A DNA stretch of 47,169 nucleotides from a virus. Made by a program: the position numbers and the translations under genes. This document shows positions 3,001-47,169 of the stretch, piece after piece. Each line of letters starts with the position of its first letter. The first letter of the stretch is position 1. The notes under the pieces are model-generated. The model saw only the letters and a list, made by a program, of their open reading frames with translations. It ran no database searches and had not been told where the DNA came from. The stretch spans positions 1-47,169 of IMG/VR virus record IMGVR_UViG_3300030333_000376, one strand, 5' to 3'.

Positions 3001-3560
3001 GTAGCACCATTAATATCTATAGTTGTTGCAGCTATTTGTACTTCTGTATCTGCAACTATATCAAGCTGACCATCAGCACTAGAGTTTATGTATAAACCAC
3101 TGTCTCTGAATTGTATTTTCTGGTTTGTGGTTGTGGTATTGCCATTAGCTAATACTTCTGGAAGTGTATCTACAGTAGCTACCTGTGCATCCACATAGGC
3201 TTTAATGGATTGCTGTGTAGCCAGTTTTGTTGCACTATTTGAACTTAAATTATCTTCATCCAATACCCCAGTTACAGAAGCACCACCTGCTGTAAAAGTT
3301 AAACTTGCTAATTTAGTGACCAAAGATGTTGCATTACTGGAAGTAGTTGCCAACCATCTTGTATTTGAGTGGTCATATATTACAGTTGAACCTGCATCAG
3401 ACGCACCTAGGGTTTCTGCTGTGGTTGTTATTCCTAATAATGCTTCAGTTCCTGCAAGTCCCTGTGTTCCTACTGTTATTACGCTAATAGCGTCTGCATC
3501 TGTAACAGTTACTTTGTTTATCGTGTTTGTATTAGTTGTTGATACCTTTGATATTGCCAT
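1..3560 (-). CDS. Giant tail fibre protein, C-terminal part missing (runs off left edge)
   Basis: I read this frame codon by codon from the ATG at 3560 to base 1 and found no stop, so at least 1186 residues are encoded and the 3' end lies outside the window. It begins MAISKVSTTNTNTINKV and is a low-complexity, Thr/Ser/Gly/Asp-rich beta-type protein. Three near-copies of a motif of the form DLEIYHDGS occur (about 2243-2290, 1972-2012 and 823-865), as do two copies of a DDITI-GSTIS block. The part nearest the edge (TGIGTGSPSDL) is typical of marine phage fibres that end in an S74 chaperone. The start overlaps the upstream stop as TAATG. Role: distal virion fibre for host recognition, inferred from composition and position after the capsid genes. 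It may be the same gene as the fragment at the right edge. Confidence 0.88.
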   Translation of the reverse strand, partial: MAISKVSTTNTNTINKVTVTDADAISVITVGTQGLAGTEALLGITTTAETLGASDAGSTVIYDHSNTRWLATTSSNATSLVTKLASLTFTAGGASVTGVLDEDNLSSNSATKLATQQSIKAYVDAQVATVDTLPEVLANGNTTTTNQKIQFRDSGLYINSSADGQLDIVADTEVQIAATTIDINGATDISGNLAVGGNLTVTGTATIAGNLTFGDAASDTVAFSADVASNLLPSADNTYDIGATGSEWKDLYIDGTAYVDAINFDGTTITSTAAELNLLDGSSANTVVNSKAVVYGSGGELAGTLSTAAQTNVTSLGTLTTLTVDDITINGSTISDSGDLTLDVGGDITLDADGGDWTFSDAGTTILGIHNVSNNAVLKANVNDANMLFKGTDNNSEITALTLDMSDAGTASFNHDVKLGDDSKAIFGSGDDLEIYHDGSHSYVKDIGTGNLKILADNLLLQRGDGSQTYIQALTGGAVDLRHAGSVKLATSSGGVTVTGVVTSDGVDVGDSEKIRLGAAQDLEIYHDGSNSYIENSTGTLKIATETSGVPITIGHTTSEVTVADNLTVTGDLTVSGTTTTVNSTTLDVADLNITVGKSATTSSATDGAGLTFGAWSSGTTPTLTWEHSNTRLSVNKPFNVTGAITSTSLTVDDITIDGSTISDGGDLTLDVAGDIILDAAGGEIKLYAAGEVGHISMAANDVTIKNAISDKDIIFQGNDGGSTITALTLDMSEAGAATLNSGATLGGNLTLSYTYPRINLTDTDHNSDYSIINNDGAFGIYDVTNSAYRLTISDAGAATFGGNIEVSHANSAQVRATDTTNTVTSKIMADDTTAYVGAHTNHNLSFLANNLVKLTVDTDGHFYIHSGNLKMGTTNVLNSGRVLYNLEQIKLADSKDLVLGTGDDFKIYHNGSHGFLDLVGDGALKVKGDDIRFENASGTEAVRIDSSGNLGIGASTVNAPLHISHATAPNFRLSRTGTGQIWQQGIDSNGRFLIQEAASEGGTKYTRFVIDDTGQTGIGTGSPSDLLELSGASPVIRGTDTDGGGAKINFGSGNITLDADYGDAESSSIINFKVDGSEAARINTDGYLIVNKTSSGISTAGALLSSVGSHITRDGGSPLSLNRLTSDGDVLSIRKDGSTVGNIGTSTAGIYIDSNLAIGGTSAAAFLDVRKDNDNSGNQFVVADT

Positions 3561-22766: not shown

Positions 22767-22986
22767 CTCCGTCTTTCTCACTTTGATACATAATGTTTAG
22801 CCCTGCTAGGGTACAAAGCCGATTTTTCTCTGAAAGTCCTTTTGGAGTGATAGTAAAGCCTTCTTCTTCTTTGGCTACAAAGCCATCTTTGACTACTTCT
22901 TCTAAATGTTCTTGTGGAGTTTCTTCTTTGAACATTACTGACAGTATTGCCCCAAGTCTTTTAGTCTGTGTCTTTGATAGTGCCAT
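22753..22986 (-). CDS. Small winged-helix-like protein at the end of the lysis region
   Basis: 77 residues from the ATG at 22986 (MALSKTQTKRLGAILSVMFK), which overlaps the lysozyme stop (TAATG). An ATG at 23001 would lie within the lysozyme gene. The pattern TPQEHLEEVVKDGFVAKEEE then FTITPKGLSEKNRLCTLAGL is that of a small phage family I recognise but cannot name, often next to lysis genes. Winged-helix-like. Last gene of the late operon. Confidence 0.62.
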   Translation of the reverse strand: MALSKTQTKRLGAILSVMFKEETPQEHLEEVVKDGFVAKEEEGFTITPKGLSEKNRLCTLAGLNIMYQSEKDGEKTG

Positions 22987-23432
22987 TAGACTGAGTACCA
23001 TTCTCCACCTTGAAACATAATAGCTTCTGCTTCTCTACGTCTAACTAAACCATTTAATACTTCACCACCTGCTTTATTCCATCTTCGCATTTGGGCAGGA
23101 ACTTCGTCATACTTACCTTCATTTAAAACTTTTAACATTGTGCTTTCTTGAAGGTTTCCTGAACCTAAGTTAAAGACCCAAGCAACCAATGCATCAAATT
23201 GACATTGTTTTAAAGGAACTTTGACCATCTTATTTATATAATCTTCATATTCAGGCAGTTCTTCCTGTAATAAATGTTCTGCTTCATCTTGGTTTATTTT
23301 GTCGCCTTCCCTTACTCCTTTTATAGTTCCATATCCTATTGTCCATATTCCTACACTGTCCTGATACGCTTCTAACCTACAACCTTCAAACTTTTTAATT
23401 AACGAGATTCCTTCTTCGCTTATTATTTGCAT
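22986..23432 (-). CDS. Endolysin, T4-lysozyme type (glycoside hydrolase family 24)
   Basis: 148 residues from the ATG at 23432 (MQIISEEGISLIKKFEGCRL). The start is fixed by GGGGGAAATAAAATG and by the nuclease stop one base upstream. The catalytic triad Glu16, Asp25, Thr31 has the T4 lysozyme spacing, in KFEGCRLEAYQDSVGIWT, followed by IGYGT. The C-terminal FDALVAWVFNLGSGNLQEST and RRWNKAGGEVLNGLVRRREA are typical GH24. It cleaves peptidoglycan glycan strands. There is no signal sequence, so it needs a holin. Complete length for the family. Confidence 0.93.
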   Translation of the reverse strand: MQIISEEGISLIKKFEGCRLEAYQDSVGIWTIGYGTIKGVREGDKINQDEAEHLLQEELPEYEDYINKMVKVPLKQCQFDALVAWVFNLGSGNLQESTMLKVLNEGKYDEVPAQMRRWNKAGGEVLNGLVRRREAEAIMFQGGEWYSV

Positions 23433-23433
23433 T

Positions 23434-23844
23434 TTATTTCCCCCATGTTCCATCTTTTCTAACTCTTGCATTTTTTGTACCACCGTCATAAACACAAGCC
23501 AAACCTTCTTCAACCAATGTATCACCGACACTTTTGCCTTCCACATATAATTCACCTAATAATCGTCCATACTTATCTCTTTTAAGACAATGCAAGATAA
23601 CATCTCCAACTAATAATTCTTTGAGTCTCTCTTTAGCTTTCAAACCTAAAGCCTTCTCTGCTGTCCTTTCAGGATATTTCTTAATATTTACCCTAGATTC
23701 GGCTGTATCTATTTTAGCAATTCTGCAAGATTGATTAGTTAAAGTGATGCCAAAGCCTACGTCTGTATCTAAACGAACAGAATCTCCGTCAATTATTTTA
23801 ATAACCTTAACTTTGTAAGTATATAACTTTGGCACTTCACTCAT
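23434..23844 (-). CDS. Thermonuclease-like (SNase) nuclease
   Basis: 136 residues of SNase OB fold. KVIKIIDGDSVRLDTD holds the metal Asp residues (D19, D21). SCRIAKIDTAES carries R41, D46, T47 and E49 at the same spacing as R35, D40, T41 and E43 of the staphylococcal enzyme. DKYGRLLGELY carries R94, equivalent to R87. The catalytic set therefore looks complete. No signal peptide, so it acts in the cytoplasm or on released DNA after lysis. It lies in the lysis cassette, overlapping the small membrane gene upstream and ending one base before the lysozyme start. Confidence 0.88.
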   Translation of the reverse strand: MSEVPKLYTYKVKVIKIIDGDSVRLDTDVGFGITLTNQSCRIAKIDTAESRVNIKKYPERTAEKALGLKAKERLKELLVGDVILHCLKRDKYGRLLGELYVEGKSVGDTLVEEGLACVYDGGTKNARVRKDGTWGK

Positions 23845-24073: not shown

Positions 24074-24445
24074 TTATTCCTTTTTTGTATCATCTTCTTC
24101 TTTATCTAGACTTCTGTAATACTTAATAATGCTTAAAATATCCTTTGTATATCTAGTTATTTCAGCCATGTCCATGCTTAGATTTTCGTATTCTTTACTG
24201 GTTAAAGAATAATAAGCACGCTTCGGAGCATCTCCATTTTCAAGATTTTTAAGATATTCTTCCATTCTTTCTGGGGTCATAACCTCCCAATCAACTTCTG
24301 ATAAACTCATAGGATATGGTAATGGTGGGTGATAGATAGGTGGTCTCTCAGCTATAGTTTTTACTTGCACAGGTTTCACTTGAGGTTGCATTAGAGAACA
24401 ACTTGCCATAAATATACTCAAACTAATTACTGCTATGTGCTTCAT
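24074..24445 (-). CDS. Outer-membrane spanin-like lipoprotein (Rz1-type role)
   Basis: 123 residues from the ATG at 24445. Signal MKHIAVISLSIFMASC with lipobox MASC and Cys16. Then a Pro-rich linker (TIAERPPIYHPPLPYPMSLS) and a charged helical C-terminal region (TPERMEEYLKNLENG). It overlaps the preceding membrane coiled-coil gene by 23 bases, like Rz/Rz1 pairs. The likely role is to bridge to the inner-membrane partner and fuse the envelope membranes in the last step of lysis. Longer than classical Rz1. Confidence 0.72.
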   Translation of the reverse strand: MKHIAVISLSIFMASCSLMQPQVKPVQVKTIAERPPIYHPPLPYPMSLSEVDWEVMTPERMEEYLKNLENGDAPKRAYYSLTSKEYENLSMDMAEITRYTKDILSIIKYYRSLDKEEDDTKKE

Positions 24446-24821
24446 CAAACTGGTTTGGATTACTTATCTTTTCAAGAGTTGCCATGACTCTTGCTGATGC
24501 TTTATTAATTCTATTCTGTAAATCTTCTGGGTTAGCTAACGCAGATTCATCTAAATCTAAGTTGGAAAATGTTTTTCTCAACCTATTAACGTCTTTCATG
24601 GCTTGTCTATTTTCTTCAGCTAAATTATTCATCTGCTGCTGTTGTTGTTTTGCTTGTTCTAAATGCCTTTCTATGGCTTCGTTCTGTTCTTCTATTTGTG
24701 TCTCAAGGACTATTTGATTCCCTTTCAGGGTAGCTATCTGGTCGTTTAGATAATCAATGTAATACCAAGAACTCGCTAATGATACTAATAACAATCCCCC
24801 TAGTATTAATGATAATTTCAT
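24423..24821 (-). CDS. Inner-membrane spanin-like protein (Rz-type role)
   Basis: 132 residues from the ATG at 24821, which overlaps the cyclase stop (ATGA). A single N-terminal membrane segment (KLSLILGGLLLVSLASSWYY) is followed by a long Gln/Glu-rich coiled coil (about 25-90) in the periplasm and a short helical end. Topology, coiled coil and overlap with a lipoprotein gene match Rz-type i-spanins. No sequence motif is diagnostic, so the call is by architecture and context. Confidence 0.72.
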   Translation of the reverse strand: MKLSLILGGLLLVSLASSWYYIDYLNDQIATLKGNQIVLETQIEEQNEAIERHLEQAKQQQQQMNNLAEENRQAMKDVNRLRKTFSNLDLDESALANPEDLQNRINKASARVMATLEKISNPNQFDEAHSSN

Positions 24822-26602
24822 TCCCATGTATACACTTGTAATGGTTTTTCTTTACCTTTGACCTTCAAAGGTTGCAACAATCTTAACTCATAATCACATT
24901 TAATGGCAGTGTTATATCCAATAACTGTATTGACACCTAATTCTTTACAAGCCGATTCTAGCCTTGCTGCTGTATTCACACCATCACCTAGACTTGTAAA
25001 CCTGACAGATGACATCTCTCCTTTACCACCTATCTTACCTATTGAGCCTTGAGATACCCAGTCTGTATTTATACCACAACCTATGCCTAACTCTGGATAA
25101 CCGTCTGCTTTTAGTTCTTTGTTAAGTTCTTCCATCTTTTCGTGCATCTTTAAAGCACACTCTAAAGCTGCGTTTTCATGTTTGTCTAAAGGAACTACTG
25201 AATTCCAACTGGCATAAATGCAGTCACCGATTGTATTGTCATGCAAACCGTTGGTATTATGTACTTGGTCAATCAACATTGACAAAATTCGGTTAAGCAT
25301 GGCTGTTACTTCGGTTGCCTCCATTTGCTCTGATAGGGTCGTATAATTCCTAATGTCTACGAATAGGTGGCTTGAGTAAACACGCTCACCGTCTAGTTTT
25401 ATATCTTCCTTAATAATCTTTTTTACCTGTCTTGGATGTAAATAAGAAGAAAAAAGTTTTTGTACCTGCTTTCTTTTTTTCCATTGCTCTCTAAATCTCA
25501 TATAAAAAGCTACAGAACCAGTTATAAATTGAGATATTAATGCCCAAGTTACATCTATTAGTAATCCTTGTTGAATAGTCCAGAAGCCAAAATAAGCCGT
25601 TGTAAGCATCAAACCTATAAATAGTGTAATACCTAAGGTAATACCAAAAACGTACAGCAGAAGCCACGCAAATAGCACTGACAGGGCAAATATACCTACC
25701 TCTAGTGCTAGAGCATAGTCAGGAATATAAGGACTGTTTTCAATAAGTATAGATTCTGCTAATGCAGCCTGAATCTTATGTGGCTCCAAAAGTTGATTAT
25801 TAGGTACAGCTAATTGAGGCATTATTCCTTTCGCAGTAAAACCAACAAATACAAACTTATTTTCTACATCCATTTCTTTGAGGTCTGTCTGTGGAGTATC
25901 TACCCACGAAACCCATTTACGACCAAGAGCATCAGTTTTTACAGGTGGTAAACCTTTTACTCTTATTTCCTCTATTCCTATTTCATTAGTTTTAATAACG
26001 TATGTATCAGTCCCTGTTAATATTTTTAATACTTCAGTACCATAAGCAGGAACCCAACCATCAGGAGTCCTTAGTAATAAAGGTAATCGCCTTATTAATG
26101 AATCAACTTCAACTCTAGCAACTGCTATACCTTGATTGGCGTTCTCTTTAAGTATATCTATGTTTTGAATAACTCCCTGTGCATCAATTCCACCTTTGTC
26201 ATCACCCATAATGACTGTTCCTGTTGTCGGTGGAAAATCTCCGTTATCATTTTCAAACATTGCTAGAACACTAGGTGCATAAGATAGAACTTGAGAGAAT
26301 TGGGGGTCGCCTCCGAATCTATCTGGTTGTGGAAAGGCAATAACCCAACCCACACCTAGTGCTCCGTTATTTAATAATTCTAAATGAATTTCAGCTAGTC
26401 TTTGTCTGCTTAGTGGGTAACCACCTTCTCTAGCTATATCATCTTCTGTAATATTAAGTATTGTGAAATATCCAGAAGGTTGTTGTTCTGGAACTAATGC
26501 ATCAAATGTTTTTAGTTTTAAGGTTTCATAAGGAACATTTTCAAATACTAAGGGCATACCCAATAGAACTAAAAGAACTATTGGTATTAACCTCTTAATC
26601 AT
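24818..26602 (-). CDS. CHASE2 sensor fused to a class III nucleotide cyclase
   Basis: 594 residues. An N-terminal membrane anchor (about 4-20), then a periplasmic CHASE2 sensor to about 295 (FDALVPEQ, YPLSRQRLA, VFVGFTAKG), three membrane helices (about 299-368) and a cytoplasmic cyclase domain from about 405. Metal-binding Asp416 (LFVDIRNYT) and Asp460 (IGDC), transition-state Asn543 and Arg547 (DGVNTAARLE) are present, and Thr536 is in the second purine-contact position as in class IIIb. The usual purine-specifying Lys is Asn456 (HDNTIGD), so specificity for ATP is uncertain. It overlaps a curlin-repeat gene upstream and a spanin downstream. It makes a cyclic nucleotide if active. Confidence 0.9.
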   Translation of the reverse strand: MIKRLIPIVLLVLLGMPLVFENVPYETLKLKTFDALVPEQQPSGYFTILNITEDDIAREGGYPLSRQRLAEIHLELLNNGALGVGWVIAFPQPDRFGGDPQFSQVLSYAPSVLAMFENDNGDFPPTTGTVIMGDDKGGIDAQGVIQNIDILKENANQGIAVARVEVDSLIRRLPLLLRTPDGWVPAYGTEVLKILTGTDTYVIKTNEIGIEEIRVKGLPPVKTDALGRKWVSWVDTPQTDLKEMDVENKFVFVGFTAKGIMPQLAVPNNQLLEPHKIQAALAESILIENSPYIPDYALALEVGIFALSVLFAWLLLYVFGITLGITLFIGLMLTTAYFGFWTIQQGLLIDVTWALISQFITGSVAFYMRFREQWKKRKQVQKLFSSYLHPRQVKKIIKEDIKLDGERVYSSHLFVDIRNYTTLSEQMEATEVTAMLNRILSMLIDQVHNTNGLHDNTIGDCIYASWNSVVPLDKHENAALECALKMHEKMEELNKELKADGYPELGIGCGINTDWVSQGSIGKIGGKGEMSSVRFTSLGDGVNTAARLESACKELGVNTVIGYNTAIKCDYELRLLQPLKVKGKEKPLQVYTWE

Positions 26603-27377
26603 ATTGAGTAATGGTTACAGTCTTGGTGCAATTAGTTACACAGTTATAGTTAGCTGTGAATGATTTATTGGTAGTTCCACTTTGAGTAACTGCTACATTA
26701 TAGTCATCAGTCCAAAAATTAAGTCTTGCAGTATGATTACCTGAACCTGATTGATTTATAGACGCTGTTCCATTATCTGCGTCTGAATACCAGAACACAT
26801 CAGCATCATGATTTCCAGAGCCAGTCTGTGTAATCGTTGTAACATTACCATCAGCATAATTATAGTTATAGACGTAAGCGTTATGTTGTCCTGTTCCTGA
26901 TTGAGTAATGGTCGTAGTAGCATCATCTCCAAATGCCCATATTTTTGCGTACTTGTTGTTTCCAGTTTGTGATATTGAATAGGTAGTGTCATCTCCTGCC
27001 ATTAATATTTCACCATGATTATCATCTCCATTCTGAGTTATAGTGGCTGTATTATCATCTTGGTCTAAATCTAAATATCCATAATTATCATCGCCTGTCT
27101 GGGTTATGGTGAAGTTATTGTCTGTGTGGTTAGACCATTGAGAATAGGCTTTAGTCGTATTTCCTGAGCCTGTAGTGGTTAAATTGATGGTCGCCCTAGT
27201 GCAAGTATGGGTTTGGTATATTCCGTTGCTTAAACCACAATATACAGTGGCATTATTTGTATATCCTACCTGCTTAATATTGATAAGAGAATCATTACCT
27301 TTTTGCTGAATAACAGTTGAGTTGTTTCCTGCAAAAAGGGGAAAACTAATCAGACTGATTAATAATAATCGTACCAT
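26595..27377 (-). CDS. Second curlin-repeat secreted protein
   Basis: 260 residues from the ATG at 27377 (MVRLLLISLISFPLFAGNNS), with a signal peptide cut after about residue 16. The ATG at 27389 would add four residues. The mature part has about seven repeats of roughly 22-26 residues, each with a core such as ITQTGDDN, ITQNGDDN, ISQTGNNK or ITQSGTGQ. This is the Gln/Gly/Asn spacing of curlin strand-turn repeats that stack into amyloid. Two Cys pairs flank the array. It overlaps the FecR gene by 32 bases and the cyclase by 8. Likely a CsgG-exported fibre subunit or nucleator. Confidence 0.82.
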   Translation of the reverse strand: MVRLLLISLISFPLFAGNNSTVIQQKGNDSLINIKQVGYTNNATVYCGLSNGIYQTHTCTRATINLTTTGSGNTTKAYSQWSNHTDNNFTITQTGDDNYGYLDLDQDDNTATITQNGDDNHGEILMAGDDTTYSISQTGNNKYAKIWAFGDDATTTITQSGTGQHNAYVYNYNYADGNVTTITQTGSGNHDADVFWYSDADNGTASINQSGSGNHTARLNFWTDDYNVAVTQSGTTNKSFTANYNCVTNCTKTVTITQYD

Positions 27378-28410
27378 CACCTCCACCATTTACTGTTATA
27401 TTTATAAATTTTCCACCTGATAATATTTGAATGTTATAAGCACTCCTCTTTTCTATCTGTAAGTCTATCGTATTTTCCACACTTCTGAAAAAATTTAGCA
27501 TCTCACCTTCTACAAAACTATACACTTGAGCCTTTGGGTCATAGCCTGCAATGATGCCTTCTAAGGTAACATCACCTATTTTAGAGACTTCATCTTCGCC
27601 TTCTATAAAAGCTAATAGGTCTATTAAGAAATCTACGTTTAATAAATCTATGGATAACCTGTCTATTTCCAGTTCATCTTCTTCTAATTCATCTTCATCA
27701 AAGTTTTCTTCTAAAAAGTCCACGTCCAATACATTAGTGCTTCTGGTGTTTTGTTCATCTACTGCTTGTTCTACTTCATCTGGTGGATTAACTATTAAAA
27801 GGTTATTAATGAAGTTTAAGGTCATATTTACTAAAGTGACTGGTTTGGTAGGGGGTGCTTCAGAAACGCTTACCATGGTAGCCTGAAAGGGCTTATTTAG
27901 GATTTCTATACCTGCTGCAGTCTCTACTGTTATTTCCCCTGAACTTGTACCATCTTCATTGGGAAGCAATATCACCAGTGATCGCCCTATTTCGTCTACT
28001 GTCGTAGTGAAGTCTGTGCCACGAATTGAGATGATTGCACTTGGAGTCTTGATAGATATATTCTTTTTATCTATTTTTCCTAGCTTACCTGTAATAAATC
28101 TAGCAGTACCACTAGCCATATTAAGAGCCAGTCTTGATTTACTTGGATTTGGGTCATAGATGTATTCATCAACAACTATTTTAGAATGTTCAGTCAATTT
28201 AATAACTGAATCATCTAAGAACTGTATAGCCATACGACCATTGCCAGTCCTTACATCATCATTACTAAGTATGCCTAAAGCCAACTCAGCTAATAATTTA
28301 TCTCCACCATCACTTCGGAGAACTTCACCATTTCCCCTTAGTTCAGATATAGAGCCTATATCTGCGTATAAAGAACTAGATACTAACCCTATTAACAACC
28401 ACTTGTGCAT
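27346..28410 (-). CDS. Secreted FecR-domain protein
   Basis: 354 residues. Signal peptide MHKWLLIGLVSSSLYA. The FecR domain spans about 45-150: DDVRTGNGRMAIQFLDDSVI, ALNMASGTARFITGKL and TPSAIISIRGTDF. An acidic-hydrophobic segment follows (about 225-270) with repeated patterns such as FDEDELEEDELEID, then a beta-rich end. No membrane segment follows the signal and no sigma factor or receptor gene is nearby, so this is not a classical Fec system. Free FecR proteins accompany CHASE2 cyclases in bacteria, as here. It may bind carbohydrate or curlin in the periplasm. Overlaps both curlin genes. Confidence 0.82.
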   Translation of the reverse strand: MHKWLLIGLVSSSLYADIGSISELRGNGEVLRSDGGDKLLAELALGILSNDDVRTGNGRMAIQFLDDSVIKLTEHSKIVVDEYIYDPNPSKSRLALNMASGTARFITGKLGKIDKKNISIKTPSAIISIRGTDFTTTVDEIGRSLVILLPNEDGTSSGEITVETAAGIEILNKPFQATMVSVSEAPPTKPVTLVNMTLNFINNLLIVNPPDEVEQAVDEQNTRSTNVLDVDFLEENFDEDELEEDELEIDRLSIDLLNVDFLIDLLAFIEGEDEVSKIGDVTLEGIIAGYDPKAQVYSFVEGEMLNFFRSVENTIDLQIEKRSAYNIQILSGGKFINITVNGGGDGTIIINQSD

Positions 28411-29078
28411 TGGTCAATGTTTATCGTACCGCTTGTAGAAGCTGCGACTATATTGATTGTGTCTGTTACACCTGATGCACTTGTTGTTTGGTCAATGTCT
28501 ATATCGTTACTGTCTCCTGTAATACTGGCTGTTATGCTCTTATCATCAGTTCCTATCTGAGTAACATCTATGTCATTGCTGTTGCCATCTATAGTCCAAT
28601 TATTGACTGCTCCAATAACCTCACTTCTGATGTTTAAATCATTAGAGTTACCAGTTATAACTGCGTCAAAATTACCACCTGTAGCAGCACTTGAACTACC
28701 TTGTAACCAAGTCAAAATGTTTTGGTTACCTGTGGCAGAATAGTCAAAGTCAGAACTTGTTACAGCACCACTACCTCCTGCAGTTATAGAGCTCGTATTA
28801 GAATCACCAATTTGGTACATAGTCCAAGAAGAACTTGCTGCCTGAGCTATAGAATTCGCCAAAGTGTTTGAGTTACCTTGTTGCTTTATATCAGCAGTTA
28901 TTGAAGCACCTGCAAAAGTAGACCTTGTACTTGAAGTACCCACTTTATTAGTATGACCAATTTGATCTATCGTTAGATTAAATGCTCCACCACCTGATTG
29001 CGTGATGTAAATATCATTGTCTCCTGACCACAGATTAAACGTTGCTAGTATTAATAAAAGTTGTAATAAATATTTCAT
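28392..29078 (-). CDS. Curlin-repeat secreted protein (CsgA/CsgB-like)
   Basis: 228 residues. Signal peptide MKYLLQLLLILATFNLWSG, then repeats with cores such as IDQIGHTN, IKQQGNSN, MYQIGDSN and VTQIGTDD, often followed by GNSNDI. These are curlin-type strand-loop-strand units. The spacing is less regular than in CsgA, with more Ser/Ala/Asp. It ends CTSGC, a Cys pair also found in the second curlin. SD AAGAGGATAATG. The start overlaps the csgG stop (TAATG), so translation is coupled to the pore that should export it. Confidence 0.82.
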   Translation of the reverse strand: MKYLLQLLLILATFNLWSGDNDIYITQSGGGAFNLTIDQIGHTNKVGTSSTRSTFAGASITADIKQQGNSNTLANSIAQAASSSWTMYQIGDSNTSSITAGGSGAVTSSDFDYSATGNQNILTWLQGSSSAATGGNFDAVITGNSNDLNIRSEVIGAVNNWTIDGNSNDIDVTQIGTDDKSITASITGDSNDIDIDQTTSASGVTDTINIVAASTSGTINIDQCTSGC

Positions 29079-29926
29079 TATCCTCTTACTCCATCTATAG
29101 GGTTTGGAATCTCAATATAATTGTAATCCCATAACTCCTTTTGTAAGCCTTCCATTACTAACTCGTAGACTGCTGTTTCTATGGCAGACCTAACTGCATA
29201 CCCTGTGGCTTCCGTCTGTGTATAGCCTGTTTCTATTTCTACTAATTCGGTATCACCTACTTCTGTAAATCTAAAAACATCTCTGCTTACACCTGCACTC
29301 AGTATTGTCTTGCTTACTGTTACATTCAATATAACTTCGCCTGTCTGTACGAGAACTGCCCTCATGGACACAGTTACATCATCTATTCGGTATTGGTTTG
29401 TATTCCCAATCCCCAAATACCTTGCACCATTTCCACCAGTCCTTATATCAGACTCATAGGAAACTATGCCACCTTCCAAGATTATACCTGCATATAGAAT
29501 TGGCTTCAGTTTATTAGCACCTTTACCATCGTAGGTTTCTCTTGTTGATTTAATTAATTGACGTTCCTTCGTTAAATTGTTGAGTCCTTTCCTTTCTACA
29601 ACCACAAACCATTCACCATTGCCTGCACTCCTCAATGCCTGTATTAAATAGTTTTCTGCCCCTTGTGTTACTGCTGTAGAAAATAAAGCCATTCTATTTG
29701 AAGGCTTACGCTGTCCAGTTAAGTCATCAAAATTATATACAGCCACAACTGCCTTTTGGTTAGGTGGTCTTAAGTCTAATAGTCGTTGTAAAGTTGTTCT
29801 CTCTACTCTTGCATCTTCAGGGCAAGTTAGTCCATGTAATAAACACTTATCTGCTCTAGGTGGTGCAAAAGAAGCACAACCTGTTAAGGCTAGTATTAGG
29901 ATTATATTCCACAGTCTGCAGTACAT
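29078..29926 (-). CDS. csgG: CsgG outer-membrane curli secretion channel
   Basis: 282 residues. Lipobox LTGC with Cys17. The CsgG core follows throughout: AVYNFDDLTGQRKPSN, LFSTAVTQGAENYLIQALRS, WFVVVERKGLNNLTKERQLI, AGIILEGGIVSYESDI, GGNGARYLGIGNTNQYRIDD, VNVTVSKTILS-like strands, DVFRFTEVGDTELVEIETGY and the C-terminal AIETAVYELVMEG. CsgG forms a nonameric pore that exports curlin. In the constriction loop the Phe is kept (F82) but the neighbouring Asn and Tyr positions appear changed. It overlaps csgF and the first curlin gene. Assignment is firm; its role in a phage is not. Confidence 0.95.
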   Translation of the reverse strand: MYCRLWNIILILALTGCASFAPPRADKCLLHGLTCPEDARVERTTLQRLLDLRPPNQKAVVAVYNFDDLTGQRKPSNRMALFSTAVTQGAENYLIQALRSAGNGEWFVVVERKGLNNLTKERQLIKSTRETYDGKGANKLKPILYAGIILEGGIVSYESDIRTGGNGARYLGIGNTNQYRIDDVTVSMRAVLVQTGEVILNVTVSKTILSAGVSRDVFRFTEVGDTELVEIETGYTQTEATGYAVRSAIETAVYELVMEGLQKELWDYNYIEIPNPIDGVRG

Positions 29927-30420
29927 ATCCCAAATATTCCTATCGGTATTACAATTTCTGTTATAGAGCCATCTTCTGCTATAACTGTTAAGGTAATGAA
30001 TTCTCCATCATTAGAGAATGTTATCGTATTACCTTCTAATTCTATTGAACCCCCAGTTCCTCCATCTTCATTAAATAACATATCTGATATGTCTCTAGAT
30101 AGATTACTGAAAATACGACTCTGTAAATTGTTTAAGAATTTGTTGAGTGTGCTGTTTTCTATTTCCCTTTCTATTTCTTCTAATTCTGACTGTATTTTTT
30201 CAGCCAGTTCATCTCGTCTCTTTCTTTCCTGTTCATCAATGGTTAAATAATGTGCAGATGTTCCTACTCCACTGAAGCTAGGATTTTTAAATTCGTGAAC
30301 TATCGGTGAAGCATTAACATTAATAGCAACCACACTTAGTAACAAAACTAAACCTATTATGACTGCAACTTCATTTCTGTTTAGTTTTGGTTTCTTTTGT
30401 ACCTTTTTGTTTTTGCTCAT
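29902..30420 (-). CDS. csgF: CsgF curli assembly factor
   Basis: 172 residues. A Lys-rich N-terminus, membrane/signal segment about 18-36 and a likely cut before SPIVHEF. The mature N-terminus PIVHEFKNPSFSGVG matches the CsgF element (F-x-F-R-N-P-N-F-G-G) that inserts into the CsgG channel. A charged helix and a C-terminal beta domain follow (NTITFSNDGEFITLTVIAED, ITEIVIPIGIFG), as in CsgF. CsgF couples secretion to fibre nucleation at the cell surface. It lies directly upstream of csgG with a 25-base overlap and overlaps the preceding membrane gene by 50 bases. Confidence 0.9.
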   Translation of the reverse strand: MSKNKKVQKKPKLNRNEVAVIIGLVLLLSVVAINVNASPIVHEFKNPSFSGVGTSAHYLTIDEQERKRRDELAEKIQSELEEIEREIENSTLNKFLNNLQSRIFSNLSRDISDMLFNEDGGTGGSIELEGNTITFSNDGEFITLTVIAEDGSITEIVIPIGIFGICTADCGI

Positions 30421-30646
30421 TTTCTTTTAACTCCAAGACAGTGTTCACTTTCTGTTGTAATCGTATCATATCTTGGTCTAAAAGCCGTAATTGGTCGGTC
30501 AAACGAATTATTGTAGTTTTCATTTGATCTACTGCAGGGTCTATTTTGTTGGTTATAGTTTGCCAAACAAAGTAAACGAAATAGCCAAGTCCAACCACCA
30601 TGACTGTTGAGAAACCAAACTTGTCTATTAAAGCAACTATATCCAT
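30371..30646 (-). CDS. Small membrane protein with cytoplasmic or periplasmic coiled coil
   Basis: 91 residues, MDIVALIDKFGFSTVMVVGL, with one membrane segment (about 11-31) and then an amphipathic coiled coil (TIIRLTDQLRLLDQDMIRLQ) and a Lys-rich tail. Resembles BhlA/holin-like marine phage proteins. It shares its layout, and the DMIRL segment, with the next upstream gene, so the two may be paralogues. The start overlaps the previous stop (TAATG). Possible holin or envelope protein supporting the curli or lysis module. Confidence 0.6.
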   Translation of the reverse strand: MDIVALIDKFGFSTVMVVGLGYFVYFVWQTITNKIDPAVDQMKTTIIRLTDQLRLLDQDMIRLQQKVNTVLELKENEQKQKGTKETKTKQK

Positions 30647-30939
30647 TAATCTCTGCGAGCATCTATCTTCCCATCTTCTACAAAGTTTTCTGCTCTCGCT
30701 ATCCTATCTAGGTCAGGTGCTAAATTTAAAGCACTAGATACACTTGTATCAATGCGAATCATGTCGTTATTCATTATTGATGCTCTTGTTATGAGCATGG
30801 TTGTTATTCCCTGTACTGTTTTAATATCAGCCACCAGTTGTCCCATAAGCTGTTTCATAATAAGAAATATAAAATATCCCATTACTAGACCACCTGCTAT
30901 GGGCAAACCAACATCTTCAATTAAGTTAAATACTTCCAC
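30646..30939 (-). CDS. Small membrane protein, paralogue-like to its neighbour
   Basis: 97 residues, MEVFNLIEDVGLPIAGGLVM, with a membrane segment (about 11-32) followed by a helical region with NNDMIRIDTSVSSALNL. The same topology and DMIR block are seen in the 91-residue neighbour. The start and stop both overlap neighbouring genes. No enzymatic motif. Holin-like role possible. Confidence 0.6.
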   Translation of the reverse strand: MEVFNLIEDVGLPIAGGLVMGYFIFLIMKQLMGQLVADIKTVQGITTMLITRASIMNNDMIRIDTSVSSALNLAPDLDRIARAENFVEDGKIDARRD

Positions 30940-31325
30940 TATTTATCTTCACCTTTGAAACTTTTAGATGCTCCTGAAGTTCCTGCGTATAAGCCAAACC
31001 AAGCTGCACCTGCTCCAACTATTACTGATATTAAGCCTGACTGTTCAAACGTAGGATTAGGTAAATCCATGAACCAAACCACAGTGTAATATAGCAATAC
31101 TATATATACAGTTAAAAAGGCTCTTGGAAATATTCTCCAAGAATCTACTGCTTGTGCTAAGAATATCCATTTCTGATGTGGGTTTCTCATACCTTCATCT
31201 TCCAACTCTCTGATTCTATCTTTTAAATCAGCTTTTTCCTGAAGCAGTTCCATGAATTTATTGAGGTCAATTTCCACCTCATTTCTATCCATGTCTCCAC
31301 CAAATCTACCTGAACTTTCATTCAT
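30939..31325 (-). CDS. Membrane protein with N-terminal coiled coil, holin-like
   Basis: 128 residues. Residues 1-45 are charged and helical (DLNKFMELLQEKADLKDRIR). Two membrane segments follow: WRIFPRAFLTVYIVLLYYTV and LISVIVGAGAAWFGLYAGTS, separated by WFMDLPNPTFEQ. The FM(A/D)LPxPT-GAGAAWFGLY pattern is common in marine phage small membrane proteins and suggests a holin-type hairpin. AAGGAG lies six bases before the ATG. It precedes the other small membrane genes and the curli cassette. Confidence 0.65.
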   Translation of the reverse strand: MNESSGRFGGDMDRNEVEIDLNKFMELLQEKADLKDRIRELEDEGMRNPHQKWIFLAQAVDSWRIFPRAFLTVYIVLLYYTVVWFMDLPNPTFEQSGLISVIVGAGAAWFGLYAGTSGASKSFKGEDK

Positions 31326-43357: not shown

Positions 43358-46300
43358 CTACTTAGTTTCTATAATCTTCTCCAATTCTTCAACTTTTGAA
43401 GATAATTCTTGTATGGCTTTGGTCAACATAGGGACAAGTTTGGAATATTTAATTCCATACATTTGTCCGTCTTCGCTTATGTTAGTTATAAGATTGGTTT
43501 TGTCCTCTACTTTATAACCATATTGTGCTTCTAAAGCCTGTACATCTTGTGCCAAAAATCCACCATCAAGTTGTTCTTCTTTATGTGTTCCATCAGGAAT
43601 TATGCTTTGATCTTCGCTATACAAACTACGTTTATCCCAACGGTAAGTTACTGGGACAAGTTGATTGATAAAATCTAATCCTAGCTCTAATTGTTTAACA
43701 TCTGTTTTATCTCTTTTATCTGAAGCAACTGTCCAATCTACTTGAATATGAGCTTCAGTTATATTTTCATCACCTAAAACTATTTCATTACTGCCTGTGG
43801 TAATTGCTCCTCCTGGACTACCTGATACTCCTGCATCTTTTCCTAAAAATAAATTATTATCTCCTGTTGTAACTGACTGACCTGCCCCAATACCTAATGC
43901 AGTATTGTATTCTCCTTCAGTATTTACATATAAAGCTCTCCTACCTATTCCAGTATTTCCTGCACCTATAGTATTAGCAGTTAAACTTTGAAAGCCTAGA
44001 GATGTGTTGTTAGCAGCAGTTGTATTAGCAGTTAAAGCGTAAGCACCTACAGCAGTATTTGCTTCACCTGTGGTATTAGCACCTAGAGCTGCTTCACCCA
44101 CTCCTGTATTGTAGTCTGCTGTTGTGTTAGCGTCTAAAGCATTTGCTCCAACAGCTACGTTAGCATCGCCTTCAGTATTTACATATAAAGCTCTCCTACC
44201 TAATCCGACATTATTAAATCCTGTTGTATTAGCATTTAAAGAGGCAGTTCCGACTGCTGTATTACTGTTAGCAGTAGTATTAGCTGCTAAAGCTCCGTAC
44301 CCTACAGCTACAATATCACTACCTGTTGTATTGTTTAATCCTGCGTTTTGTCCAAATGCTGCGTTATAAGTACCTGTGGTGTTTGCACTTAATGAAGTAT
44401 TACCTACTGCTGTGTTACTGTTAGCATTATTAGCGTCTAAACTACCTACTCCAATAGCAACGTTACTAGCTCCTGTTGTATTAACGTCAAGTGCTCCATA
44501 TCCTATAGCTGTGTTATTGACACCTGTGGTATTGGCTTGCATTGCTCCTCTACCTACTGCTGTGTTACCACCACCTGTAGTATTTCCTTCTAAAGCTTGA
44601 GTACCAATACCTGTATTATTATCAGCTGTAGTGTTAGCATTTAATGCAGCATAACCCATTGCAACATTATTATCTCCATCTGTATTTAGTGCTAAAGCAG
44701 CATTACCAACTGCTGTATTTATCATACCTGTAGTATTCGCACTTAATGCACTTGCTCCTACGGCAGTATGACTACTTTTATCTGTATTAGCATCTAAAGC
44801 TTGCCTTCCTATAGCTGTGTTGTTATATCCAGTTGTATTTGCAAATAGTGCGTTTTCTCCTATAGCAGTATTACTACCACCTGTATTATTGTATAAAGTA
44901 TTTTGACCAACAGCTACACTATAGTCTCCTTGTGTTCCTGAAGACATCGCTTGATAACCTATTGCTACGTTGCCTGCAGCAGTTGTAGCATTAGTTAGTG
45001 AATTTTTACCTACTGCAGTATTATAAGAAGCAGTTGTGGCAGTTGTTAAAGAGTTATATCCAACTGCTGTATTTGAACCACCTGTAGTGTTGGCATCTAA
45101 AGAATACATACCAACAGCTGTATTGTCAGCACCTGTTTCATTAGCTACTAAAGCTTGACTTCCTACAGCAGTATTATTAGCTCCTGTTGTATTTGCATAT
45201 AAAGCTGCTGCACCTAAAGCTGTATTATGATCTGCTGTTGTAGCAGCTTGTAATGCTCTAGCACCTATTGCTGTGTTTTGATCTCCCTCAGTAATAGCTT
45301 TACCTGCATCTTTACCAAATGCTGCATTTTTTGTACCTGTTGTATTAGCTTTAAGTGAATCATAACCTACTGCTGTGTTGTCTGAAGCTGTAGTGTTAAG
45401 TGCTAATGCACCTTGACCAACAGCTACGTTATAGTTACCAGTTGTATTAGTCAATAAAGCCTCTCTACCTATACCAGTATTTTGTTCTCCTGTAGTATTT
45501 CCTGATAAAGATAAATATCCTAAAGATGTATTGTAACTACCTGTAGTATTAGCATCTAAGGCATAAGTACCAACTGCTGTATTCTGGTTTGCAGTAGTAC
45601 TTTCTTCTAAAGCTTGTAGTCCTATTGCTACATTACTTGATCCTGTAGTAGTTTTTTGTAATGCTTCATTTCCTATAGCTACATTATAATTTCCTGTAGT
45701 TGTTTCTGCACCTGAACCCCACCCCATATAAGTATTCGAAGACCCTGTAGTAACTGAACCACCTGAAACATAACCAATTGCTGTATTATAAGTACCTGTT
45801 GTATTAGCATCTAAAGCATAAGACCCTACGGCTGTATTACCACTACCTGTAGTTATTGCAACACCTGCAAAATACCCAACCATAGTATTATCACTTGGTG
45901 AGTTTGCTACATTTAATGCTCCGTAACCTAATGCTGTATTTCTATCTCCATCTACATTTAATTTTAATGAATCTTTACCTAATGCTGTATTGGAATGTCC
46001 TTCTGTATTTGCAGCCATAGATAGGTAGCCTACGGCAGTATTACCAGTTGCAGTAGTATTTTCTTCTAAAGCGTGATAACCGACTGCTGTATTGTAAGAA
46101 GCAGTAGTGTTTTGTTCCATAGCTTGATAACCAATAGCCACGTTATAGTTACCCGTTGTATTTTCTTCTAAAGCATAATTACCTACTGCTACATTACTAG
46201 CGCCTGTAGTATTTGCATATAGTGCTTGTCTGCCTACTGCTATATTATTGTCTGCTGTCGTATTAGAATATAAAGCTAAAAGCCCAACAGCAGTATTACT

Positions 46301-47169
46301 ATCACCAGTAGTGTTTGTGTATAACGGACTGTAACCAATAGCTGTGTTTCTTATACCAGTTGTATTATTAAGTAATGCTATTCCACCTATAGCAGTGTTT
46401 TCCTTCCCCGTAGTGTTATCTTCTAGTGCAGCATAACCTACTGCTGTATTATATGAATCTTCATTACTATCAGGATTGTAAGCTGTTAATGCGTTATAAC
46501 CGACTGCAACATTTCTGTCACCTACTGTATTTGCATCTAAGGCATAGTTACCTACAGCTGTATTAGTATTTCCAGTGGTATTTGCTCCTAAAGCACCTTG
46601 ACCAAGAGCAACATTCTGAGTACCTGTCGTATTTGCATCTAACGAATAAGCACCTATAGCTGTATTATTACCTGCTGTAGTATTTGCTCCTAAAGCATTA
46701 TAACCTACTGCAGTATTATTAGCTGCATCAGTGTTAGCATCTAAAGCATAGTTACCTACAGCAACATTTTCTGAACCAGTAGTGTTAGAAGTTAAAGTAT
46801 TATATCCAATCGCTAAATTATTATTGGCAGTTGTATTAGCTGCAAGTGCTACCCTACCTATTGCAATATTATAACCACCTGTAGTATTGCCACCTAAAGC
46901 ATCATTACCTACAGCTACGTTACTTCCACCTGTAGTGTTAGCGTCTAAGGAATCTCTACCTATTGCTACGTTATATGCACCTGTTTCGTTTAATTCTAAA
47001 GCATCTCTACCTATGGCAGTATTATCTGATGCTGTGGTATTTGTTTTTAGAGCTCCATAACCTAGTACAGTATTTCCTGCTCCTGTAGTATTGGCGTTCA
47101 TAGCTAAACCACCTACTGCAGTATTAGCTGTTCCTGTTGTTGCTGCACCTAATGCGTTGTAACCAACTG
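43358..47169 (-). CDS. Giant tail fibre with beta-roll repeats and S74 chaperone, N-terminal part missing
   Basis: The frame is open from the right edge (it reads VGYNALGAATTGTANTAVGG before the first ATG at 47101), so the 5' end lies outside the window. About 65 repeats of 17 residues follow, consensus N-T-A-V-G-x-x-A-L-x-A-N-T-T-G-x-x, the YadA/Hep_Hag left-handed beta-roll. After residue about 1085 comes NNLFLGKDAG, then the S74 intramolecular chaperone, where ASDKRDKTDV carries the self-cleavage Ser (codon 43723-43721). VPVTYRWDKR, GGFLAQDVQALE and a final coiled coil complete it. It should trimerise, then cleave off the chaperone. Host recognition is inferred. Confidence 0.92.
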   Translation of the reverse strand, partial: VGYNALGAATTGTANTAVGGLAMNANTTGAGNTVLGYGALKTNTTASDNTAIGRDALELNETGAYNVAIGRDSLDANTTGGSNVAVGNDALGGNTTGGYNIAIGRVALAANTTANNNLAIGYNTLTSNTTGSENVAVGNYALDANTDAANNTAVGYNALGANTTAGNNTAIGAYSLDANTTGTQNVALGQGALGANTTGNTNTAVGNYALDANTVGDRNVAVGYNALTAYNPDSNEDSYNTAVGYAALEDNTTGKENTAIGGIALLNNTTGIRNTAIGYSPLYTNTTGDSNTAVGLLALYSNTTADNNIAVGRQALYANTTGASNVAVGNYALEENTTGNYNVAIGYQAMEQNTTASYNTAVGYHALEENTTATGNTAVGYLSMAANTEGHSNTALGKDSLKLNVDGDRNTALGYGALNVANSPSDNTMVGYFAGVAITTGSGNTAVGSYALDANTTGTYNTAIGYVSGGSVTTGSSNTYMGWGSGAETTTGNYNVAIGNEALQKTTTGSSNVAIGLQALEESTTANQNTAVGTYALDANTTGSYNTSLGYLSLSGNTTGEQNTGIGREALLTNTTGNYNVAVGQGALALNTTASDNTAVGYDSLKANTTGTKNAAFGKDAGKAITEGDQNTAIGARALQAATTADHNTALGAAALYANTTGANNTAVGSQALVANETGADNTAVGMYSLDANTTGGSNTAVGYNSLTTATTASYNTAVGKNSLTNATTAAGNVAIGYQAMSSGTQGDYSVAVGQNTLYNNTGGSNTAIGENALFANTTGYNNTAIGRQALDANTDKSSHTAVGASALSANTTGMINTAVGNAALALNTDGDNNVAMGYAALNANTTADNNTGIGTQALEGNTTGGGNTAVGRGAMQANTTGVNNTAIGYGALDVNTTGASNVAIGVGSLDANNANSNTAVGNTSLSANTTGTYNAAFGQNAGLNNTTGSDIVAVGYGALAANTTANSNTAVGTASLNANTTGFNNVGLGRRALYVNTEGDANVAVGANALDANTTADYNTGVGEAALGANTTGEANTAVGAYALTANTTAANNTSLGFQSLTANTIGAGNTGIGRRALYVNTEGEYNTALGIGAGQSVTTGDNNLFLGKDAGVSGSPGGAITTGSNEIVLGDENITEAHIQVDWTVASDKRDKTDVKQLELGLDFINQLVPVTYRWDKRSLYSEDQSIIPDGTHKEEQLDGGFLAQDVQALEAQYGYKVEDKTNLITNISEDGQMYGIKYSKLVPMLTKAIQELSSKVEELEKIIETK
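43846..47169 (-). repeat. Tandem array of 51-bp coding repeats (beta-roll units)
   Basis: Each unit encodes 17 residues. Units keep Asn at the start, AVG or AIG near positions 3-5, A-L near 8-9 and N-T-T near 12-14. They vary at the solvent positions, so the array is old rather than freshly expanded. About 65 units are in the window, and the array continues past the right edge. Confidence 0.9.

Follow-up and report, generated by a model that had tools for sequence, protein, structure and literature searches.

The window analysed here, the whole of IMG/VR virus record IMGVR_UViG_3300030333_000376 (positions 1-47,169; 47,169 nt, the numbering used throughout being that of the whole stretch), belongs to a siphovirus-type marine phage that infects bacteria, and one segment of it can be read, with a probability of about 0.68 on the evidence of the sequence, as a viral module for type VIII (curli) secretion whose genes are expressed late, as part of the lysis operon. 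According to the mechanism proposed, CsgG and CsgF would form an outer-membrane pore, and both curlins, once exported, would pass through it and polymerise into amyloid at the surface of the dying cell. The role of the FecR-domain protein may be to anchor or cap the fibre rather than to act as an iron or sigma regulator, and the cyclase would sense the envelope through its CHASE2 domain and make a cyclic nucleotide. Fibres made shortly before lysis could glue or coat the cells, so that progeny are held near new hosts or competing phages are kept off. The product is probably a secreted fibre; that its benefit lies in aggregation or in superinfection exclusion, two effects inseparable here, has about an even chance of being right. 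The clumping of infected cells was not seen with phage Melnitz (Buchholz et al.), which counts against the fibre reading.

Table 1. Genes of the curli cassette and of the adjoining lysis block in the window
Product	Position	Strand	Match and remarks
Small membrane protein, 128 aa, N-terminal coiled coil, bounding the slot on the left	30939..31325	-	phrog_10198, unknown function
TM + coiled-coil protein, 97 aa, type A, C-terminus DARRD	30646..30939	-	phrog_18771, 3.9e-24
TM + coiled-coil protein, 91 aa, type B, paralogue of the 97-aa type A	30371..30646	-	phrog_18771, 6.6e-26
CsgF, extracellular curli assembly factor	29902..30420	-	PF10614, 6.4e-14, profile 5-132/132
CsgG, outer-membrane curli pore lipoprotein, lipobox LTGC	29078..29926	-	PF03783, 2.1e-52, profile 6-207/210
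Curlin-repeat protein 1, signal-like N-terminal segment, C-terminal CTSGC	28392..29078	-	PF07012, 1e-7
Exported FecR-domain protein	27346..28410	-	PF04773, 4.9e-12
Curlin-repeat protein 2, predicted beta-solenoid	26595..27389	-	PF07012, 1.4e-14, six repeats
Cyclase, CHASE2 sensor + transmembrane part	25487..26602	-	PF05226, 1.6e-20
Cyclase, linker + class III catalytic domain	24818..25486	-	PF00211, 1.4e-15
Rz-like spanin, bounding the slot on the right	24423..24827	-	phrog_739, 1.7e-11
Rz1-like outer-membrane spanin, overlaps Rz	24074..24448	-	phrog_812, 3.6e-17
Lysozyme (endolysin)	22986..23555	-	PF00959, 1.7e-49

The HMM search confirmed the six overlapping genes that the initial annotation had placed at 24818-30420, all of which clear the curated Pfam cut-offs by which they were judged, and the genes were found to overlap or abut throughout from 31325 to 24074. 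The spanins noted beside the cassette are real, as is the adjoining lysozyme. The proposal that a phage carries, in its lysis region, a cassette for curli secretion and amyloid is supported. The 128-aa protein possesses a hydrophobic segment near residue 70 and matches nothing in Pfam over the cut-off, and it can be called "holin-like" from its position only.

The claim that CsgG and CsgF keep their defining segments also holds. Both profile matches are nearly full, CsgG aligns with the solved E. coli CsgG almost from end to end (residues 4-268, 6.5e-48), and the CsgG-binding segment of CsgF, as defined in PMC12311626, is present as FKNPSFSG, in which F26, N28, P29, F31 and G33 are kept and G32 is replaced by S. 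CsgE, which usually serves as the gate and was reported as not present, was sought with PF10627 and found in 0/28 phage records (the window and 27 others), the E. coli control being positive. The missing gate counts against the fibre reading, although csgE is generally missing from Alphaproteobacteria (PMC3521004); its absence is therefore unremarkable, and its interpretation as a special trait was rejected. It has been suggested (PMC7029224, PMC9599517) that such a channel serves uptake, a CsgG without CsgE staying open and admitting nutrients, cofactors or siderophores for replication; the uniform lack of CsgE and the known occurrence of FecR domains in iron signalling agree with this proposal. 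We consider it improbable, because the curlins and CsgF would be needless for uptake yet are always kept, CsgG is seen only together with curlins, the late site by the lysis genes is a poor moment for uptake, and the FecR protein has no cytoplasmic anti-sigma portion. The fibre subunits always accompany the pore in viral loci: curlin 1, the FecR protein and CsgF are each present in 36/36 fully flanked loci, and curlin 2 in 35 of the 36.

The cassette genes are under strong purifying selection (dN/dS 0.04-0.19), which indicates that the secreted subunits and the pore are both maintained. Compared with the related contig L007, the values were 0.044 for curlin 1, 0.066 for curlin 2, 0.063 for the FecR-domain protein and 0.19 for CsgG. 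The AlphaFold model of curlin 2 (pLDDT 84, pTM 0.85) is an all-beta solenoid, and a Foldseek comparison of the curlin model with the PDB gave no confident match to any solved structure. Chance similarity as the origin of the curlin repeats was rejected by the Pfam scores, the solenoid model and the dN/dS values. The FecR-domain protein contains a flexible linker and a C-terminal beta domain whose last strand is curlin-like (TIIINQSD), and its model (pLDDT 68) resembles FecR/PupR signalling domains (4m0h, 6ovk) and also the cell-surface anchoring domain 5ix9. The FecR domain is common to this protein and to the FecR anti-sigma regulators, but the cytoplasmic anti-sigma domain and inner-membrane helix ahead of it were not found in the window protein, where only a short signal-like N-terminus occurs, no segment reaches the TM threshold and no further Pfam domain was detected. 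The label "iron regulator FecR" used in the literature merits correction, as does that of "histidine kinase" for the small upstream proteins.

The initial annotation regarded a set in which two curlins are joined by FecR and a cyclase as unreported, which proved incorrect: the order CsgF, CsgG, curlin, FecR, curlin, cyclase was described in pelagiphages by Wittmers et al. 2022 (PMC9599517). The pelagiphage T8SS module (PMC9599517; Zaragoza-Solas et al. 2020, PMC7029224) agrees with the window in its small upstream gene(s) followed by the six-gene order, in the lack of CsgE and in its marine origin. The cultured phages HTVC008M (KC465899) and Melnitz (MZ577097), whose genomes are T4-like and of 141-147 kb, carry all eight genes in the order seen in the window, with identities to it of 47-49% for CsgG, 36-38% for FecR and 27-29% for the cyclase. 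The module was thus previously known from myo- and podovirus-type pelagiphages (the T4-like myoviruses and the HTVC023P-type podovirus), whereas the carrier in the window is of siphovirus type, its cassette lies within the lysis operon, and its cyclase has an exchanged catalytic domain devoid of the specificity lysine. The gene set itself is already known; the siphovirus-type carrier with the cassette in the lysis operon is new here. Together with the replacement of the cassette by another exported cargo, the siphovirus-type backbone and the lysis-operon site indicate a device for late surface display that moves between phages and is not peculiar to those of SAR11.

CsgG, CsgF and the curlin repeats are shared by the window with bacterial curli (csg) operons and type VIII secretion. 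The FecR gene, the CHASE2 cyclase and the small TM pair were found beside csgF/csgG in 0/37 bacterial loci, within about 8 kb, which points to a distinct viral module, and in the CsgG tree the viral sequences form one clade against the 37 bacterial ones with a support of 99. A search of genome contigs for CsgG returned only L022 (a contig in a Flavobacteriaceae MAG, likely viral and mis-binned), a Polaromonas curli locus and one fragment. Curli operons are common in bacteria, and the segment could in principle be a host fragment joined by misassembly, as the annotation had allowed, or a decaying host remnant. This explanation can be given almost no weight: the junctions of the window cassette recur in the independent contigs L004, L007 and L008, relatives occur in at least 590 viral contigs, the FecR, cyclase and TM genes are missing from the bacterial loci, the genes are under purifying selection, and the G+C content is even across the window (0.35-0.39).

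The window carrier combines an HK97-type portal and capsid with a gpJ-type siphovirus tail, and the nearest relatives of its TerL, capsid and gpJ are mixed in host, all at less than 52% identity. No exact terminal repeat of at least 10 bases was found in the record, and the frame across its joined ends soon hits a stop. Cassette carriers comprise at least three unrelated backbones (myo-, podo- and siphovirus-type) with unrelated tails, and a search for the same gene order in other phages recovered it in 34/36 viral loci with enough flank, which rules out chance and misassembly as the source of the arrangement. The diversity of backbones and tails argues against released fibres that attach to or bundle the virions after lysis, and secretion via an outer-membrane pore would place the fibres on cells and not on cytoplasmic virions; although the late operon site beside tail and lysis genes and the exported, sticky nature of all known curlins would suit such a decoration or aggregation of the progeny, it seems a poor candidate.

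Late co-expression of the cassette with the lysis genes can fairly be inferred, because many related contigs, of siphovirus type and of DNA-polymerase-A type, repeat the adjacency to spanin or lysozyme genes. In the window the reading frames of the cassette also overlap with Rz. The linkage is not universal, the cassette lying outside a lysis block in the myophage carriers HTVC008M and Melnitz. After the 128-aa gene, relatives of the window carry the curli cassette, a different exported cargo, or Rz directly. The site behind this gene is a slot that holds curli, other exported cargo or nothing, which is new here. CsgG is an outer-membrane pore and alone cannot depolarise the inner membrane. 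The embedding of the cassette in the lysis operon of the window and many relatives, as well as the holin-like size of the paired small TM proteins, might otherwise favour a function in lysis timing, in which CsgG/CsgF would act as a gated pore or as a pinholin-like trigger depolarising the envelope, an idea that Buchholz et al. 2022 put forward for Melnitz. This function is unlikely, since the lysozyme and both spanins already adjoin the cassette, siblings have the membrane-gene/Rz/Rz1 block without curli, and a role of the pore alone leaves unexplained why conservation is strongest in the curlins. For the first of these reasons, among the functions listed in the initial annotation, a lytic opening of the outer membrane is the least likely. 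No holin, endolysin or spanin was found to be replaced by the cassette, as the lysozyme and both spanins are present, and CsgG as a lysis substitute was judged unlikely also because curli-empty sites exist; these findings weaken the idea of the pore as a stand-in for lysis genes.

Besides the fibre genes, the secretion module includes the cyclase, which differs from that of L007 in an uneven manner: the CHASE2 sensor is 94-96% identical and the catalytic domain 49-50%, with a rise of the synonymous divergence from 0.28 to 1.9 at the junction. The catalytic domain is instead 94-95% identical to that of L250/L251, the matching phage being only about 62% alike elsewhere, and its dN/dS compared with L251 is 0.04. 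Trees of the CHASE2 and catalytic domains disagree (AU p as low as 1e-41), chiefly due to L006; restricted to the window and L007 the test is not significant (p 0.165), and the exchange in the window is therefore argued from the jump in identity and from the match to L251. Judged by these comparisons, the window cyclase is a mosaic whose catalytic end has been exchanged by recombination between viruses, which is new here. Fast point divergence of the catalytic domain was rejected in view of the synonymous jump, the match to L250/L251 and the tree conflict.

The window copy shares with CHASE2 class III adenylate cyclases (e.g. Pseudomonas CyaB) the CHASE2 domain, the TM helices and the catalytic domain, in which both metal-binding Asp residues and the transition-state Asn and Arg are kept (VDIRNYT, IGDC, VNTAARLE). 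It differs from them in the base-specifying residue, DNTIGD replacing DKxIGD, so that the adenine-specifying Lys becomes Asn. This Lys is kept in 66/67 aligned viral cyclases, the window having Asn, and the L250/L251 cyclases also have Asn. It is tempting to speculate, though only tentatively, that the lysis-operon slot takes cargo for late display at the surface, be it curli or an exported pair rich in Asn/Thr, or stays empty, that the cyclase end of the curli cargo is swapped like a cartridge, and that the product of the window cyclase is a cyclic nucleotide distinct from cAMP. A Lys-less cyclase under strong purifying selection and with a non-cAMP product would then mean that phages vary the second messenger that they release as the host dies, which might help them to suit or evade different hosts. 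The domain exchange and the maintained Lys-less variant raise the questions of which nucleotide is made and why phages changed it.

The cassette starts with two paralogous small membrane/coiled-coil genes (Table 1), which were outside the set of the initial annotation. A phrog_18771 member is present in 36/36 fully flanked viral cassettes, in the phage collection the family occurs beside curli cassettes only, and members of this small-TM family also stand ahead of the cassettes of HTVC008M and Melnitz. The upstream "histidine kinases" of the pelagiphage module (PMC9599517) probably equal these 91/97-aa proteins, for which a kinase function was rejected, no kinase family being matched in Pfam or NCBIfam. 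Their status as strict curli partners is weakened by L333/L334, in which the pair lies between the 128-aa gene and a spanin and the curli genes are absent; this pair is likely, though not proven, to be a deletion remnant.

The window carries tailed-phage genes (terminase, portal, head protease, HK97-type capsid, tape measure, distal tail and gpJ-like proteins) on 47,169 bases of this IMG/VR virus record, and its G+C content is even at 0.35-0.39. The curli genes belong to a single run of overlapping or abutting genes. All family assignments of the initial annotation passed curated cut-offs; CsgG aligned over almost its whole length with the E. coli pore of known structure, the known CsgG-binding residues were mostly kept in CsgF, and curlin 2 was modelled as an all-beta solenoid (pLDDT 84, pTM 0.85). 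The junction with tail genes recurred in three viral contigs from independent datasets (L004, L007 and L008), and in two of them, L004 and L007, so did the junction with the spanins at the opposite side. Between the window and L007, dN/dS was 0.04-0.19 across all cassette genes, the lowest values being those of curlin 1 (0.044), the FecR-domain protein (0.063) and curlin 2 (0.066). The cassette recognised in the initial annotation is thus real and maintained, given the shared junctions and this selection.

Positions of the features discussed, in the window and in compared viral contigs
Feature	Contig	Position	Strand	Remark
Overlapping or abutting gene run	window	31325 to 24074	-	order: 128-aa membrane protein gene, 97-aa and 91-aa TM/coiled-coil paralogues, CsgF, CsgG, curlin 1, FecR-domain protein, curlin 2, CHASE2-cyclase, Rz, Rz1
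CsgF	window	29902-30420	-	ends in CTADC
Curlin 1	window	28392-29078	-	ends in CTSGC
Curlin 2	window	26595-27389	-	ends in CVTNC
Nuclease-like gene	window	23434-23844		between spanins and lysozyme
Lysozyme	window	22986-23555		after Rz1
Large gene	window	1-3560		at left record end, incomplete
Large gene	window	43358-47101		at right record end
Alternative cargo	L255	6182-9962
Alternative cargo	L284	419-4307
Alternative cargo	L292	10384-14067
Alternative cargo	L281	1507-5323
TM/coiled-coil pair	L333	10381-10925		locus without curli genes
TM/coiled-coil pair	L334	10381-10925		locus without curli genes

The large gene at the right end has virion structural and tail spike family matches and 12-13 repeated stretches.

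CsgG relatives were encoded in at least 590 viral contigs. Viral loci counted as fully flanked, with 2 kb or more of upstream and 6.5 kb or more of downstream sequence around csgG, numbered 36; the small TM family, CsgF, curlin 1 and FecR were in every one of them, curlin 2 and the cyclase were each in 35, and the gene order was identical in 34. The initial annotation had taken this combination as unreported, a claim that was not borne out: a conserved arrangement of CsgF, CsgG, CsgA/B, FecR, another CsgA/B and adenylate cyclase, with one or two 'histidine kinases' ahead of it, has been described in myophages and in HTVC023P-type podophages (Wittmers et al. 2022, PMC9599517). Pelagimyophages with CsgF/CsgG were reported earlier, 'sibling capture' being suggested (Zaragoza-Solas et al. 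2020, PMC7029224), and a role in lysis timing was proposed for phage Melnitz (Buchholz et al. 2022). The records of HTVC008M and Melnitz have the published order. The INPHARED relatives of FecR and the cyclase were confined to these podophage and myophage groups, as were those of CsgG save for one 1.5-kb record, and no description of the module in a siphovirus-type phage was found in the open-licence literature. The module is therefore known as a kind; the siphovirus-type carrier, the slot and the cyclase exchange are added here.

The 91/97-aa proteins, which L086 and L098 encode on the other strand, gave no kinase match, and are equated with the published 'HK' from their position and copy number.

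The window's terminase type was found in 3 of the 25 other cassette-bearing contigs tested, many cassette contigs being fragments. T4-type portals occurred on cassette contigs of 114, 340 and 31 kb, family-A DNA polymerases on five, and an HK97-type portal in the window, its three relatives and one further contig; gpJ-like tails were restricted, among those tested, to the window and the same three relatives. Two carriers are very large phage contigs, L080 (217 kb) and L081 (340 kb, with a T4-type portal). In the CsgG tree, viral sequences of all backbone types grouped in a single clade, apart from the 37 bacterial sequences (support 99), which is consistent with a single entry into viruses and later spread. 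Of 37 bacterial csgF/csgG loci, a sample of Pseudomonadota searched with viral profiles that could miss dissimilar loci, none had the FecR protein, the cyclase or the small TM family within about 8 kb; at least in that sample, these genes are therefore viral additions. A 10-kb contig binned as a Flavobacteriaceae MAG (L022, PAHL01000002.1) has the full viral cassette and probably belongs to a phage, the binning being wrong.

The cassette adjoins Rz/Rz1, lysozyme or the 128-aa gene in many contigs of the siphovirus and DNA-polymerase-A types; the product of the 128-aa gene is labelled a membrane protein, not a holin. Scanning viral contigs for this gene and Rz revealed three states: curli beside the 128-aa gene, with the TM pair first in 69 loci; Rz directly behind it (9 loci); or another cargo, made up of two predicted exported proteins, one Asn/Thr-rich and one of about 770 aa, together with a small TM/coiled-coil protein. 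The Asn/Thr-rich protein is of low complexity, and the ~770-aa protein had neither a convincing Pfam match nor a relative in the annotated phage collection. When loci were located via the 128-aa gene and had 3 kb or more of sequence following it, 20 had curli (scored within 7.5 kb), 20 the other cargo, 0 both and 8 neither (Fisher p 1.9e-7, relatedness of contigs uncorrected); L074 has both cargos. From the three states and the near-exclusive counts, the site is therefore a slot for late surface cargo. In L333 and L334 the TM/coiled-coil pair is flanked by the 128-aa gene and by a spanin-like gene, either as a remnant of cassette loss or through independent use.

The cyclase of the window was 94% identical to that of L007 in CHASE2 and 96% in the TM part; the linker (50%) and the catalytic domain (49%) were far less alike, and identity returned to 97% in the spanins beyond. 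Near residue 372, synonymous divergence climbed from 0.28 to 1.9. Contig L251 showed the reverse pattern (FecR 56%, CHASE2 62%, Rz 73%; linker 94%, catalytic domain 95%), and L006 combined a CHASE2 close to the window's with a catalytic domain like that of L009 (89% identity). The CHASE2 and catalytic-domain trees were in conflict, a test on the window and L007 alone being not significant. The exchanged stretch begins where the TM part meets the linker and ends near the start of Rz. The staphylococcal-nuclease-like gene, with ~47% identity to its L007 counterpart between neighbours of ~95%, appears to be another local exchange.

As read from alignment of 67 viral cyclases and with CyaB, the window's catalytic domain retains the Asn/Arg pair as well as the metal aspartates, and has DNTIGD where a lysine is kept in 66 of the 67. 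Since L250 and L251 also have asparagine for lysine, and dN/dS against L251 is 0.04 in the catalytic part, we infer that the enzyme is probably active with altered substrate preference. One cyclase clade (L003, L073, L075, L077, L080, L081) deviates from the usual active site in another way, with Ser replacing the transition-state Asn (AVSTAAR).

The FecR-domain protein has a signal-like N-terminal segment and is without the anti-sigma part. Its model (pLDDT 68, linker low) is similar to signalling domains of the FecR type and, for 62 residues, to the cell-surface anchoring domain 5ix9. The last strand resembles a curlin strand, and 75 of the 84 copies, some of which are truncated, have IxIxQ close to the C-terminus. 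The protein may thus be a fibre anchor or cap.

Gene families and selection point to fibre secretion: late transcription of the lysis operon would yield the CsgG/CsgF pore and two curlins polymerising on the outer surface, where the FecR-domain protein would anchor or cap the fibre, while the cyclase may report the envelope state. The gain could be either aggregation of hosts or exclusion of rivals. Lysis through the pore itself is the less likely role, since the cassette already has lysozyme and spanin genes beside it and siblings without curli presumably lyse. Copies with a C-terminal CxxxC motif number 51 of 91 for CsgF, 56 of 95 for curlin 1 and 48 of 72 for curlin 2, and disulfide pairing in the fibre is possible.
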